A stretch of DNA of 64,000 nt from Candidatus Coatesiibacteriota bacterium. GTDB taxonomy: Bacteria; RBG-13-66-14; B26-G2; JAUVZD01. The position numbers were made by a program, and so were the translations under genes. The notes beneath the pieces are model-generated. The model searched no databases and was not told where the DNA came from. It saw only the letters and a list, made by a program, of their open reading frames with translations. Below are positions 20,458 to 44,768 of the stretch, one piece after another; the stretch's first letter is position 1; every line of letters starts with the position of its first letter. Where the stretch lies: positions 46,242 through 110,241 of the forward strand of contig JAUVZD010000012.1 of NCBI GenBank assembly GCA_030602715.1, in the 5' to 3' direction.

Positions 20458-21528
20458 TCAGGACACCTTGGCCAGCTTATCAGCCTTCTCCTTAGCCATC
20501 AGGGCTTCAATAATCTGGTCAAATCCGCCCTCCATAACCCGTTCCAGGGTATAGAGGGTGAGGTCCAGGCGATGGTCGCTGACCCTGTTCTGGGGGAAGT
20601 TATAGGTGCGGATGCGCTCGGAGCGGTCGCCGGATTTCACCTGTGCCCGCCTTTCACTGGAACGTTCCGCCTCGGCTTCCGCCTGAGCCATATCGTAGAG
20701 GCGGGCTCTGAGAATCTTGAGCGCCTTGGCTTTGTTCTTGTGCTGGCTCTTCTCATCCTGGCAGGTGACCACCAGTTCGGTGCGAAGATGGGTTATGCGT
20801 ACCGCCGAATCGGTGGTGTTGACCGACTGACCGCCGGGACCGGTGGAGCGAAAGACATCTATGCGTAAATCCTCGGGGGAAATTTCCACCTCCACCTCCT
20901 CGGCTTCAGGGAGGACGGCAACGGTCACCGCCGAGGTGTGGATGCGTCCGCTGGACTCGGTCACCGGCACCCGCTGGACACGATGAACCCCGCTCTCGTG
21001 CTTGAGCAGGCTGAAGGCTCCCTTTCCGGAGACCAAAAAGACGACCTCCTTATATCCCCCGACCCCGGTGGGATGGGAGGAGAGTATCTCCACCTTGAAC
21101 TTGCGCCCCTCCAGAAACTTCTGGTAGGCTCTGAAGAGCTCGGCGGCGAAGAGGGTGGCTTCGTCGCCTCCGGTGCCGGCACGAATCTCCACTATGGTAT
21201 TTCGGGAATCCCGCTCGTCGGCGGGGATGAGCGCCTCCTTCAGCTTGACCTCCAGCTTCTCCAGCTCGGCACGGAGAGACTCCACCTCCTGCTCAGCCAG
21301 TTCTCGCAGTTCCCGGTCCGTCCCACTATCATTGAGCATACCCTCCGCCTCGGTGAGCTCTTCCTGCAGGCGCATAAACCTGCGCCACAACTGCACCGGC
21401 TCCTCCAGCTCGGCACGGGCTTTGGCAATCTGCGCCAGCTTATTGTGGTCGCCAGCCACCTTGGGGTCCGCCATCTGAGTGGTCAGCTGGTCGTATTTTT
21501 GTTCCAGTTCCTTTAGTTTTTCGTGCAT
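20458..21528 (-). CDS. prfA: Peptide chain release factor 1
   Basis: 'IEIRAGTGGDEATLFAAELFR', 'VPVTESSGRIHTSAVTVAVLPE', 'STGPGGQSVNTTDSAVRITH' (GGQ). Confidence 0.95.
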   Translation of the reverse strand: MHEKLKELEQKYDQLTTQMADPKVAGDHNKLAQIAKARAELEEPVQLWRRFMRLQEELTEAEGMLNDSGTDRELRELAEQEVESLRAELEKLEVKLKEALIPADERDSRNTIVEIRAGTGGDEATLFAAELFRAYQKFLEGRKFKVEILSSHPTGVGGYKEVVFLVSGKGAFSLLKHESGVHRVQRVPVTESSGRIHTSAVTVAVLPEAEEVEVEISPEDLRIDVFRSTGPGGQSVNTTDSAVRITHLRTELVVTCQDEKSQHKNKAKALKILRARLYDMAQAEAEAERSSERRAQVKSGDRSERIRTYNFPQNRVSDHRLDLTLYTLERVMEGGFDQIIEALMAKEKADKLAKVS

Positions 21529-21578: not shown

Positions 21579-22343
21579 CTATGCTGCAAGGTCATTAACA
21601 TATTCATCCTTTTTAGTCCAGGGTAAAGCTTTAATTCCATATTTAGTAAGTGCACTTATGAGGTCTGAGCTTATTGGCTTTTCAGTATCATTTAGAACCC
21701 CATAAGCGGTAGAATCAGGTTCCCTTACCTGTTTTGTGTCAGTCCAAGAAAAAATTAGTGATGTAATATTTTGTCTGTTGGGTATATTTATTGCTCGAAT
21801 GATCCTTTCTGCTTTCGCTTTTGATGCTGGGATTACGAAATCAAAGAAATGAACAAATCCACTATTTCCATTAAAATTTACTGATGGCGTAAAACGAATC
21901 TCATTAAAACGAAGGTATCTCTCTACATCTTCTTTAAAAAGACTTGCCACTATTGGCTCAGCCATAACAAAAAGGTCGTTTATTGACAATATAGCCTGGA
22001 TTATATTGTGTTTCTTTTGTGGAAAATTATCAGGTCTTGCTTCAACAAAAATCTCATCTCCCTTACGATGAACACCAAATCCATTTAGAATTGCATTTAA
22101 CATATGAATTCTTTTTTCTGTATTAAATTCGCACCCACTTAACTTTAGGTCCGTAATAGTATAACCATCGTCACTCAGAATGAACCCATTATCAATTTTT
22201 TCCATATATATTTGCAGTTGGTCATTATGTCGGTCAAGAAAAGGAGTTGTAATTTCACAAACATCCCCTATTTCTTCCACAATTATTTTCTGTCTCAACC
22301 ATTCAATATAATCATTTACCAAAGTCTGACAATCCTTCGGCAT
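21579..22343 (-). CDS. DUF1828/DUF1829-like protein
   Basis: N-terminal 'TTPFLDRHNDQLQIYMEKIDNGFILSDDGYTITDLKLSG' resembles DUF1828; C-terminal part resembles DUF1829. AT-rich relative to flanks. Confidence 0.65.
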   Translation of the reverse strand: MPKDCQTLVNDYIEWLRQKIIVEEIGDVCEITTPFLDRHNDQLQIYMEKIDNGFILSDDGYTITDLKLSGCEFNTEKRIHMLNAILNGFGVHRKGDEIFVEARPDNFPQKKHNIIQAILSINDLFVMAEPIVASLFKEDVERYLRFNEIRFTPSVNFNGNSGFVHFFDFVIPASKAKAERIIRAINIPNRQNITSLIFSWTDTKQVREPDSTAYGVLNDTEKPISSDLISALTKYGIKALPWTKKDEYVNDLAA

Positions 22344-22822
22344 TAGAATAACCCCCTTTCAACAATAGGTGGTTCAATGATGTTGCAGTAATTAAAGAAG
22401 TCATCTAAAGTTGCATAAAGATCATCTTTGTTTGTAAATTCACCAGTTGGAGTAGGAACCGCCCACTTGTCATTAAAGCCTTCTACATATAAGTGGAGAT
22501 GAGGACATTCTATATTCTGTCCAGCATACGGGATAAGATAATCAATAATCTCTGGGTATAATTCTGGATTATCGTGGGGTGGTCCATCAATATCAAGTCT
22601 AATAAGTATAATCATTCCCCTATAACGCTCTTGATAAGTACATCTTTTAAGCCTAAATTTTCCTTTTCTGCTTACATCAATAAGAAACTTTTCACTTTCG
22701 TCAATCGAAATAATCGGCATAGTCAAAAGTTCACCAGAAACAGGAAAACCATAATGTTCATCCGTCTCCCTCTTCTTTTGCATAGCAACTAAAGTGTCTG
22801 CTTCAGATTGAGTTATCATCAT
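22343..22822 (-). CDS. Conserved hypothetical protein (possibly DUF6978-like), partner of the DUF1828/1829 gene
   Basis: 'IECPHLHLYVEGFNDKWAVPTPTGEFTNKDDLYATLDDFFNYCNI'; stop overlaps the downstream ATG by one base (TAATG). Confidence 0.5.
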   Translation of the reverse strand: MMITQSEADTLVAMQKKRETDEHYGFPVSGELLTMPIISIDESEKFLIDVSRKGKFRLKRCTYQERYRGMIILIRLDIDGPPHDNPELYPEIIDYLIPYAGQNIECPHLHLYVEGFNDKWAVPTPTGEFTNKDDLYATLDDFFNYCNIIEPPIVERGLF

Positions 22823-22925: not shown

Positions 22926-23063
22926 TCATTCGTGGTTCCATACTTCGTTCTTTTTTTCCGGCGGTAACACCCGCTCAAATCTATCGTCCAGACAAAGCGT
23001 CATGCTCATCTGCGCCACCTCCAGCATGCCCTCGTCCGGCTCCCATGTGGTAACCTTCTGCAT
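22926..23063 (-). pseudogene. Remnant: diverged second copy of the 3' end of the DUF1385 gene
   Basis: Minus strand reads MQKVTTWEPDEGMLEVAQMSMTLCLDDRFERVLPPEKKNEVWNHE*; 24/35 residues identical to MQRITTREPDDGMLRVALTSMTLCLDERFRRIVPP at the end of the gene at 23900-24943. Confidence 0.8.
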
Positions 23064-23089
23064 CCTTTTATTTAAGAGCTATGTGGACA

Positions 23090-23716
23090 TTATGTATGCG
23101 GCGTGGTCACTATTTTTGCTTTTGAATTGTGATACAATACAACAATGTCTTTCGGGGCTCCTGCTAGTATTTCCTGAATTTTTTTATCTTCATCTTTTTC
23201 TTTTAGATAATAATAATCATCAAATAGTATAAAAACTGTCTTCTCAGCAATTTCCAGTCTTTTAAGCTCTACTAACCTGTCAATATCCCTCTTGATAACA
23301 ACAGTTGCTACACCTTGACGCCATTGATAGTAGCGGAAGCATTTTGCTTCAGCACATAATAAAAACGGACCTCTGTTGGTTTCATCGGTAATTATCAAAT
23401 CTAGTTTTACTTTCCCAACGCGCTCCTCGAGTTCTTTTATTTTGCTCTCAAACTCATATCCCTCAAAATTTTTCTCATCGAATGTTTTATCAAAGTGCAC
23501 TTCAATACCCGAATTTCCGCCTAGTCGCTGATAAAAGAACCTTCCAAGTTGTAACATCAAATCAGCTTCATCCCAACATATCCAATGCTCATTCTCTGTC
23601 TCTTTTTCACTCAGACCCTTAGAATATTTACGCGCCCTCTCATCGTAATAATTTTTAAAATCTTCCCAAGCGTTTTTAAACATCTTTTCGATTTCTTTTC
23701 CGCTAGCATTTTTCAT
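23090..23716 (-). CDS. PD-(D/E)XK-like nuclease, possible restriction endonuclease
   Basis: 'VGKVKLDLIITDETNRGPFLLCAEAKCFRYYQWRQG' fits the D-x(n)-ExK pattern. ATG 23716 overlaps the stop of the upstream methyltransferase remnant (ATGA). Confidence 0.6.
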   Translation of the reverse strand: MKNASGKEIEKMFKNAWEDFKNYYDERARKYSKGLSEKETENEHWICWDEADLMLQLGRFFYQRLGGNSGIEVHFDKTFDEKNFEGYEFESKIKELEERVGKVKLDLIITDETNRGPFLLCAEAKCFRYYQWRQGVATVVIKRDIDRLVELKRLEIAEKTVFILFDDYYYLKEKDEDKKIQEILAGAPKDIVVLYHNSKAKIVTTPHT

Positions 23717-23883
23717 TTCTTTTCTCCTTCTTTCAGGTTCACTTTTCCGCAAACATCCTTGTCAGCTAATAAATGCGTTAGAATCCCCCAATTATCCCCA
23801 AAATACAAGCGATTACCCCAACCATCCAGACGAGAATTACCCATTCTCTCCGTTTCCATCAATGTTACTTCTTCTGATTTCAT
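23713..23883 (-). pseudogene. Truncated DNA methyltransferase N-terminus (56-codon remnant)
   Basis: Minus strand reads MKSEEVTLMETERMGNSRLDGWGNRLYFGDNWGILTHLLADKDVCGKVNLKEGEKK*; 'NRLYFGDNxxIL...D..VCGKV.L' matches the segment preceding 'IYIDPPF' in N4/N6 DNA methyltransferases; the DPPF/Y core is absent. Confidence 0.6.
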
Positions 23884-23899: not shown

Positions 23900-24943
23900 T
23901 CAATGATGTTTCCTACTACCTATATCATTATATTCCATCCATCCTTCACAGTCAATCCCAAATGAAACCACCCCTCCCCCCTCCGCCTTCTCCCCCTCGC
24001 CAGCGGGGGGGACTATGCGCCGGAAGCGCTCATCAAGGCAGAGGGTCATGCTGGTAAGCGCCACCCGCAACATACCGTCGTCCGGCTCACGGGTGGTTAT
24101 CCTCTGCATCCACAGCCCCGGTGCGGTGAATATCTTGAGCGCCCAGTTGTCCGGATAGCGAGCCGAGATGCGGATTATCTCATAGGTTATGCCGGCGATC
24201 AACGGTATGAGCAGAACGCGGATGAGTATATTCTGCCAGCGGGTCAAATCGGGAAAGATGGAGAATATGACCGTATGCACCAATATGATGACCAGCAGGA
24301 TTACAATTATAAAGCTGGTTCCACATCTACGGTGGAACCGGCTGGCGAGGCGGGCTCTCTTCATGCTCGCCTTCCCAGCCCCCTCCTCACAGCCGGCGAT
24401 GGTCTTGTGCTCGGCACCGTGGTAGGCATAGACCCGCTTTATCTCCCTGGAGAAGGATATCGCCCAGATATAACCCACAACCAAAAAGATGCGCAGGATA
24501 CCGTCTATCACATTGAACAAAAACTGGCTCTCGGATACAATCGGCATCCATCTACCCAGTAGGTAGGAGAGGAGATAAGGCAAGCCGACAAAGATGGCTA
24601 AAGCCACAATCAAGGTAGGAATCATGGTCAACATCATGGAGCGTTTGGAGAGCGTCTTCTCCCCCTCACCCTCCAAAGCGACATTGGCGGAGAAGGTCAA
24701 AGCCTCCATACCCAGCTTCAAGGACTCAAAGAGGACGATGACCCCTCTGAGTAAGGGCGACTTCCAGGGGTGCCTCTTGGCAATGCTTTTCAAAGACTCC
24801 TTCTTGACCACCATAGAGCCGTCCTTTCTGCGCACCGCCACGCAGTAGTGCTCACCGGAGCGCATAAGCACCCCCTCCATTACCGCCTGCCCCCCTATAG
24901 GGTCCACCTTGGCTTTATCCTGCTTGTCCTTGGCGAGCATCAA
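23900..24943 (-). CDS. DUF1385 family membrane protein
   Basis: 'IGGQAVMEGVLMRSGEHYCVAVRRKDGSMV', 'RVYAYHGAEHKTIAGCEEG', 'PGLWMQRITTREPDDGML' are DUF1385 hallmarks. Confidence 0.92.
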   Translation of the reverse strand: MMLAKDKQDKAKVDPIGGQAVMEGVLMRSGEHYCVAVRRKDGSMVVKKESLKSIAKRHPWKSPLLRGVIVLFESLKLGMEALTFSANVALEGEGEKTLSKRSMMLTMIPTLIVALAIFVGLPYLLSYLLGRWMPIVSESQFLFNVIDGILRIFLVVGYIWAISFSREIKRVYAYHGAEHKTIAGCEEGAGKASMKRARLASRFHRRCGTSFIIVILLVIILVHTVIFSIFPDLTRWQNILIRVLLIPLIAGITYEIIRISARYPDNWALKIFTAPGLWMQRITTREPDDGMLRVALTSMTLCLDERFRRIVPPAGEGEKAEGGGVVSFGIDCEGWMEYNDIGSRKHH

Positions 24944-42793: not shown

Positions 42794-44026
42794 ATGGCAA
42801 AATCAGACACAGAAGTCTTGAAATACAGAGACGAAAGCTACGACTTCCGAGATACGGATACCTCCTGGGGGGTGCATGGCATCCATCCATATCCGGCTAT
42901 GATGGTCTATCCCATTGCAAGGAGGTTAATTAAGGAATATTCCAAAGAGGGGGGTGTGGTTTTAGACCCCTTTATGGGCTCAGGCACGGTATTAGTGGAG
43001 AGTATATTGCATAGCAGGAATTGTATTGGCGCTGATTTAAATCCATTAGCGTTATTGATTGCTAATGCTAAAAAAACTTATATACCTGCCAAGAAACTCT
43101 ATGATTCAATTGTAAAAATATTATCCAAAAAAGAGAACTTTGAATATTCAGCTCCAGATTTCTTTAACATCAATTTTTGGTTTAAAGAATATGTGATAGA
43201 TAATTTGGCAAGGCTTAAGGCGAAAATTAGTGTAATCAAAGACGAGGACATTAAGCGGTTTTTCTTGGTGGCTTTTAGTGAAACGGTTAGGATTTGCTCT
43301 AATACCAGAACCGGGGAGTTCAAATTACTTCGCATTAAGGTGCTTGAGAAACACAATCCTAATGTTTTTTCAACATTTGAACGGATAGCCTCCAGAAACA
43401 TCAAGAAACTACTAGAAACATATAATCACCAGCCCCATACTTCTGCTGAGGCGATAGAAGCAGACTCAAGATACGATATCCCCGACCTCCAACCGAGTGC
43501 CATTGACTTAGTACTTACATCTCCTCCCTATGGCGACAGCAAGACCACCGTAGCCTATGGACAGTTTTCTCGCTTATCACTCCAATGGCTGGGCAATGAA
43601 GAAGTTACGGTAGATAAGGATTCTCTGGGAGGGTCGCCAACGGAATCTTTGGACACCGACATACCCTCAGAAACGGTTAGGGTCATAATTGGTAAAATCA
43701 AAGAGTTGGACAGCAAAAGAGCTAGGCAAGTGCTCAGCTTTTATATTGACTTATTCGCATGCTTTGAAAATATCAAAAGATACTTAAAAAGGGGGGGCTA
43801 TATATGTTTGGTGGTAGGTAACAGAAGGGTGAAGCGAATAACTATTCCCACTGATAGCATAGTAGTTGAGCTTTTGAATGCACTAGGATATGTTCATACT
43901 AAGACAATCCTCAGGGAAATACCTAGCAAAAGAATGCCTTGGGCAAACAGTCCCACCAACATTATCGGAGCCAAAGAGAAAACGATGAATGAGGAAAATA
44001 TTATCATTATGCAGAAGGAGAGTTAA
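42794..44026 (+). CDS. DNA methyltransferase of an R-M-like pair (SAM motif plus SPPY)
   Basis: 'VVLDPFMGSGTVLVESILHSRNCIGADLNPLA' and 'DLVLTSPPYGDSKTTVAYGQFSRL'; AT-rich. Confidence 0.82.
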   Translation: MAKSDTEVLKYRDESYDFRDTDTSWGVHGIHPYPAMMVYPIARRLIKEYSKEGGVVLDPFMGSGTVLVESILHSRNCIGADLNPLALLIANAKKTYIPAKKLYDSIVKILSKKENFEYSAPDFFNINFWFKEYVIDNLARLKAKISVIKDEDIKRFFLVAFSETVRICSNTRTGEFKLLRIKVLEKHNPNVFSTFERIASRNIKKLLETYNHQPHTSAEAIEADSRYDIPDLQPSAIDLVLTSPPYGDSKTTVAYGQFSRLSLQWLGNEEVTVDKDSLGGSPTESLDTDIPSETVRVIIGKIKELDSKRARQVLSFYIDLFACFENIKRYLKRGGYICLVVGNRRVKRITIPTDSIVVELLNALGYVHTKTILREIPSKRMPWANSPTNIIGAKEKTMNEENIIIMQKES

Positions 44027-44030
44027 CCCT

Positions 44031-44768
44031 ATGGGCTTTACTACTTTCCAAAAGGAGCAAAGGGGAAAAATAATGCCATCAGGTGAAGAAATCGCTGAGA
44101 TGGCTCAGAAACAGATCAAGATTGACAAGGATAAAATTGAAGCAAATTTCAATCAGTACCTAAACCAATTACTCAGTAAAGAATTTGATATATATAAAGG
44201 GTTGGAGCTAGAATGTTCTAAGAAGATAATTTCCTCAGCGATGGAAAAAGGACTATTGGTTGACGAGGGGGATTTTCCTAAATCATTTATTAAAAATTAT
44301 CATTATCTAGATAAATTCTTTTTAAGTATTACTCAATCAAGAAGAACTCGGGCTGGAGGAAGTTTTGAAATTCATGTCCGTTATCTTTTTAATATTTTAG
44401 ATTATCCCTACGACCGCCAAACGGACTTAAACGGCACAGTTGATTATGTAATTCCCAGCAAATCTGCATTCAAAAGAAGAAGGTCTTCTTGTGTAGTTAT
44501 ATCCATAAAACGAACACTTAGGGAAAGATGGAGACAGGTAATCGGTGAACTAAAGTCAACCAATGCTGGTAAAATCTATATGCTAACCACGGACGATGAT
44601 ATAGGTGAAACAAAAGTGCAAGAAATGAAAAGCCACAATATAATACTTGTAGTATGGGATGAAATTAAAGATAGCAAACTGAAAAAATATGATAATGTCA
44701 TCGGCTTTACTAATTTCATTAACCAGGACCTCCCAGCATCAAGGAAGCTATGGGAGGACCTAGTCTGA
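44031..44768 (+). CDS. Type II restriction endonuclease, EcoRII C-terminal-like
   Basis: 'QSRRTRAGGSFEIHVRYLFNILDYPYDRQTDLNGTVDYVIPS...CVVISIKRTLRERWRQVIGELKSTNAGKIYMLTTDDDIG' resembles the EcoRII-C catalytic domain; adjacent to the methyltransferase. Confidence 0.75.
   Translation: MGFTTFQKEQRGKIMPSGEEIAEMAQKQIKIDKDKIEANFNQYLNQLLSKEFDIYKGLELECSKKIISSAMEKGLLVDEGDFPKSFIKNYHYLDKFFLSITQSRRTRAGGSFEIHVRYLFNILDYPYDRQTDLNGTVDYVIPSKSAFKRRRSSCVVISIKRTLRERWRQVIGELKSTNAGKIYMLTTDDDIGETKVQEMKSHNIILVVWDEIKDSKLKKYDNVIGFTNFINQDLPASRKLWEDLV

Follow-up and report, generated by a model that had tools for sequence, protein, structure and literature searches.

An N4/N6 methyltransferase remnant joined to a predicted, probably stand-alone PD-(D/E)XK nuclease gene in an AT-rich insertion of a Candidatus Coatesiibacteriota genome

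The locus lies in a 64,000-nucleotide stretch of a Candidatus Coatesiibacteriota genome (contig JAUVZD010000012.1, positions 46,242 to 110,241), hereafter termed the window, and all its genes are on the minus strand. Upstream it is bordered by a full-length DUF1385 gene (23900-24943; Pfam PF07136, E 8e-74) and downstream by prfA (20458-21528), where the border is defined by synteny in relatives and by a rise in GC content from about 34% to 61%. DUF1385, prfA, and prmC are contiguous in five relatives, while about 2.4 kb separate DUF1385 from prfA in the window genome. As this DNA has a GC content of roughly 33-41% compared to 54% for the window, the contiguity in the relatives and the low GC content together identify the stretch as an insertion. 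The resulting island carries a methyltransferase (MTase) remnant, a nuclease gene, a fragment of a DUF1385 3' end, and a gene pair encoding the candidate defence proteins PDC-M24A (DUF6978; 22343-22822) and PDC-M24B (DUF1828/DUF1829; 21579-22343). Both members of the pair were assigned by family match, and a literature search turned up no functional study of them (21579-22822, minus strand).

The diverged DUF1385 fragment (22926-23065, minus strand; about 45 codons) starts 2 nt after the nuclease unit. It shares 76% nucleotide identity with the full gene over 82 nt, and its translation matches with an E-value of 7e-11 (61% over 41 aa). By inspection, the tail of the fragment is nearer to the full gene of its own genome than to the tails of the relatives. 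It may have arisen by duplication on insertion or by recombination with DNA of a relative. Long target duplication on insertion has been discussed for restriction-modification (R-M) systems.

The most upstream reading frame of the island, proposed in a preliminary description of this DNA, is indeed present as a 56-codon minus-strand ORF (23713-23883) reading MKSEEVTL...GKVNLKEGEKK before its stop codon. The preliminary description took the entire peptide for the N-terminus of an N4/N6 DNA MTase, truncated before an IYIDPPF motif. Similarity and truncation point both stand, but the MTase part comprises only the first 50 codons (23734-23883). A tblastn search of plasmids and phages with the 56-residue peptide returned 19 matches, 18 of which lie in genes annotated as MTase or methylase; the single unannotated match, H1, reads ...GKVNLVYIDPPFDSKADYK. 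In 16 of the 19, the alignment ends at query residue 50, from which we derive the shorter extent. The two best relatives continue with VYIDPPF and IYIDPPF directly after the matched GKVNL/GKVDL. Taken singly, the E-values are modest (best 0.009 and 0.01), so that the assignment leans on the consistency of the matches; for this very short peptide, no Pfam, PADLOC, NCBIfam, or PHROGs model was matched. As the stop codon precedes the catalytic (D/N)PP(Y/F) motif, which the relatives carry right after residue 50, the remnant must be dead. A search of its own genome recovered the fragment alone and no complete gene for this MTase; in the phylum, the search gave only a weak match to a different MTase. 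Downstream of the nuclease gene, where the remaining MTase gene was also sought, the DUF1385 fragment follows instead.

The nuclease gene (23090-23716, minus strand) is an intact frame of 208 codons. As previously claimed, the TGA of the small ORF (23715-23713) overlaps its ATG (23716-23714), forming an ATGA. The basis of this arrangement emerges from a paralogue on contig C3 of the same genome (L003/L036), which is 60% identical by alignment and 63% by the search program, and whose neighbours are mutL and miaA, without an MTase. Since mutL and miaA are adjacent in a same-order relative, without an insert, this copy is likewise an insertion. The two paralogous regions are 73% identical (blastn) and end sharply at AAAGAAGGAG and CTTAAATAA. 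Their common DNA begins with AAA(G/A)AAGGAGAAAAGAA-ATG, corresponding to codon 51 of the 56-codon ORF, and reaches CTT(A/G)AATAA, 22 nt beyond the stop. It thereby defines a nuclease unit (23068-23733, minus strand) comprising a leader with the Shine-Dalgarno sequence AAAGAAGGAGAAAAGAA-ATG, the coding region, and the 22 nt that follow. The end of MTase similarity and the start of the paralogue-shared DNA therefore coincide at codon 50/51, and the join between the two is directly visible. Because the shared DNA starts at codon 51, the last six codons (KEGEKK) represent the ribosome-binding leader of the nuclease gene read in frame. Leader and ATGAAA start recur in the mutL-miaA paralogue, where no MTase fragment precedes them, and the overlap consequently needs no translational coupling: judged from the sequence, the overlapping stop is simply the ATG-AAA start of the nuclease gene, which any frame entering the leader meets in one of three cases. 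We therefore set aside translational coupling as evidence for a partnership.

The nuclease was proposed to be a plausible PD-(D/E)XK enzyme, and structure prediction agrees with this assignment. AlphaFold2 models computed with 4 or 6 aligned homologues (mean pLDDT 79 and 82, respectively; pTM 0.82) display an alpha/beta core with strands at residues 71-78, 104-111, 118-126, and 157-166 and flanking helices, arranged in the element order of the PD-(D/E)XK type. The candidate catalytic residues D106, E123, and K125, which would form the D...ExK motif, are invariant across the 6 homologues, as are E50 and D52 in the helix before the core motif. In a Foldseek search against the PDB, BstEII (PDB 9ibq) was the only match with E < 0.001 (E about 1e-3, probability 1.0), and the restriction-enzyme fold expected of a Type II R-M nuclease is thus predicted by both approaches. 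The likeness is confined to the shared PD-(D/E)XK fold, since the TM-score is only 0.4 at 13% identity, and the nuclease lacks an adjacent cognate MTase. The 208-residue protein matched nothing in Pfam, PADLOC, NCBIfam, PHROGs, or the PDB sequences. According to the models, it is a diverged member of the PD-(D/E)XK fold with no solved relative detectable by sequence.

Estimates of dN/dS (Nei-Gojobori) suggest that the protein is under constraint, which is not proof of activity. Among the near-full-length copies L004, L005, and L043 from the Candidatus Stahlbacteria phylum, values of 0.25-0.30 were obtained, which are rough because the C-terminus of L005 is out of register. Between the two copies of the window genome, a crude estimate of 0.60 is compatible with partly relaxed constraint.

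Relatives of the nuclease were sought in 386 genomes, viral contigs, plasmids, and phages, where none was found outside the genome itself. Four are present in the Candidatus Stahlbacteria phylum (L004, L005, L043, and L044); two of these loci came from one contig scan and two more from 147 genomes of that phylum. None has a coupled MTase. At L044, two genes and about 2 kb separate the nuclease from the nearest MTase, and the nuclease copy is broken by in-frame stops, the only one of six copies so affected; the copy at L005 has an altered C-terminus. The genes surrounding the nuclease differ from locus to locus. In contrast to an R-M pair with a linked intact MTase, there are only 50 MTase codons upstream of the nuclease here and none beside its five homologues. 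That homologues of the nuclease stand alone had been named beforehand as an observation speaking against an R-M module, and this is what the five other loci show, albeit in a small sample: only six family members were found, and "normally stands alone" leans on these five. Two further ORFs were recorded near the Stahlbacteria copies. A 208-residue ORF without a Pfam or PADLOC match lies just upstream of the nuclease at L005 (L005:5297-5923, plus strand), and a small ORF in a repeat-rich stretch near the broken copy (L044:3229-3618, minus strand) may resemble DUF559-type endonucleases.

Different genes adjoin the MTase relatives that were inspected. We inspected six relatives for full-length MTases followed by homologues of the nuclease, and in none of them does a small nuclease like this one follow the MTase. 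In Tunicatimonas, Enterococcus, and Nitrosomonas, the MTase lies between a helicase and a large partner, either a DEAD/DEAH helicase or a TnsA-N protein. An Acutalibacteraceae phage shows the order DNA helicase, hypothetical protein, MTase, large hypothetical protein, while the unannotated MTase of Dolichospermum precedes a helicase-related gene. The Geobacillus MTase is of a shorter kind without helicase or large partners. The remnant resembles the MTases of plasmid helicase-MTase-large-protein modules, such as those of Tunicatimonas (WP_302211031), Nitrosomonas (WP_347889125), and Enterococcus (WP_121262359), whose N-terminal 32-39 residues are about 38-53% identical to it up to the residue before V/IYIDPPF. 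In contrast to these modules, just 50 codons are left in the window, and the genes for the helicase and the large partner are missing.

At all four Stahlbacteria loci, the nuclease gene is directly seen to be bracketed by inverted palindromes of the form GTAGGGGCC...GGCCC with their GTAG ends pointing outward, as in REP sequences. The stem varies in some of them, and a single palindrome has an expanded loop. The distance from the end of the upstream REP to the ATG is 28-31 nt in L004, L005, and L043, and about 23 nt in the broken L044. Downstream, the REP starts 9 nt past the stop in L004 and L043, and the frame of L005 reads through it. Between L004 and L005, blastn homology extends over 542-1266, with a REP-to-REP span of 545-1262. 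In the comparisons involving L043, homology stops near the downstream REP but begins inside the upstream REP, and L004 and L043 have other flanking stretches in common as well. The naive chance of REPs on both sides is about 5e-7 per locus, although the four loci do not count as four independent events, because they could descend from one bracketed ancestor.

The palindrome has 44-52 matches in each of three genomes, counted on both strands with up to 2 mismatches and with some sites scored on both strands, and the same search gave none in the window genome. Neither the window copy nor its paralogue has flanking REPs, and the search for a RAYT in their genome was negative. The three REP-bearing genomes encode RAYTs at sites other than the nuclease locus. 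One of these genes (G386; L084:1355-1837, minus strand) is flanked by the same kind of inverted GTAG REP pair, an arrangement already known for RAYT genes (PMC3733652). The Stahlbacteria copies thus resemble REPtrons (PMC3733652) in being bracketed like a RAYT gene of the same genome. They differ in that the bracketed gene encodes the PD-(D/E)XK nuclease and not a RAYT (Y1_Tnp), and the window copy lacks REPs altogether. As this bracketing matches that of a RAYT gene, it suggests mobility in trans. We tentatively consider, with more doubt than conviction, that the nuclease gene may be REP-bracketed cargo, taking the place of the RAYT and moved in trans by RAYTs in Stahlbacteria and relatives, and that the window genome may have received it horizontally without REPs.

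The arrangement at the join can be explained in several ways. The preliminary description regarded it as a single eroded R-M module, in which an internal in-frame deletion took out most of the MTase but spared the cognate nuclease translationally coupled to it. An MTase N-terminus directly upstream with an ATGA overlap is what such a deletion would leave, and cases of a full-length restriction enzyme next to a disrupted MTase are on record (PMC3488263). However, the nuclease has its own Shine-Dalgarno sequence within a leader common to the MTase-free paralogue, a coupled MTase is seen in 0 of 5 nuclease relatives, and the relatives of the MTase have other partners. Moreover, Ershova et al (2012; PMC3488263) reported 74 systems in which a full-length restriction enzyme accompanies a possibly inactive MTase, and each of them has an intact orthologous counterpart elsewhere; here, in a small sampling, none was found. 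On these grounds the deletion scenario, already disfavoured, is very improbable. The solitary restriction endonucleases of the same study are comparable in that a restriction-enzyme-like nuclease occurs without a functional linked MTase, but most of them are tied to orthologous R-M systems, and no such pair was found for the present family.

A cognate MTase could instead be encoded elsewhere in the genome, with the upstream fragment being incidental. N6_N4_Mtase genes occur at about a dozen loci in the genome (G000, 2.3 Mb), including three within 404-415 kb of contig C3, and a published survey of 272 solitary restriction enzyme genes predicted a distantly encoded partner MTase for 57 of them (PMC3488263). 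Yet the nuclease relatives are found among different genes each time, and a non-systematic look identified no co-occurring MTase, which makes a split system unlikely. The window itself contains an apparently intact R-M pair (42794-44768, plus strand), in which a Type II N4/N6 MTase gene (PADLOC MTase_II, E 1e-122) overlaps a nuclease gene with an EcoRII-C domain (E 4e-21). Finally, the nuclease might be catalytically dead or unexpressed, as the broken L044 copy illustrates. The in-frame stops in that copy, the altered C-terminus of L005, and the higher dN/dS between the two window-genome copies are in line with decay. The window copy, however, is full length and retains all invariant motif residues, and the lower dN/dS among the copies of the other phylum speaks for constraint; we consider decay decidedly unlikely.

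We favour, with good confidence, an explanation in which two acquired DNA pieces of unrelated origin came to be joined within the AT-rich insertion between DUF1385 and prfA. One would be the dead start of an N4/N6 MTase gene, 50 codons long, and the other a self-contained gene for a PD-(D/E)XK nuclease, which has a ribosome-binding site of its own and elsewhere occurs without an MTase. Because the nuclease is found without an MTase elsewhere, including in other bacteria, remnant and nuclease most likely do not descend from a single R-M system that broke up. The nuclease has most likely been kept as a mobile stand-alone DNA endonuclease and not as the remaining partner of an R-M pair; it would cleave DNA, and the gene may have been mobilised by RAYTs and transferred horizontally into the window genome. 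A defence or selfish role is conceivable at best.

A retained restriction enzyme without its methylase would be expected to be toxic. We set this puzzle aside, as there is no sign that the MTase ever protected against the nuclease, and the apparent paradox disappears if the two ORFs, as is probable, are not partners. What emerges is a previously undescribed family of predicted PD-(D/E)XK nucleases; in another phylum, its genes lie between palindromes of the kind seen around a RAYT gene. If this bracketing is due to mobilisation, cargo genes can be carried by REP/RAYT systems, and this would bear on the question of what RAYTs move.
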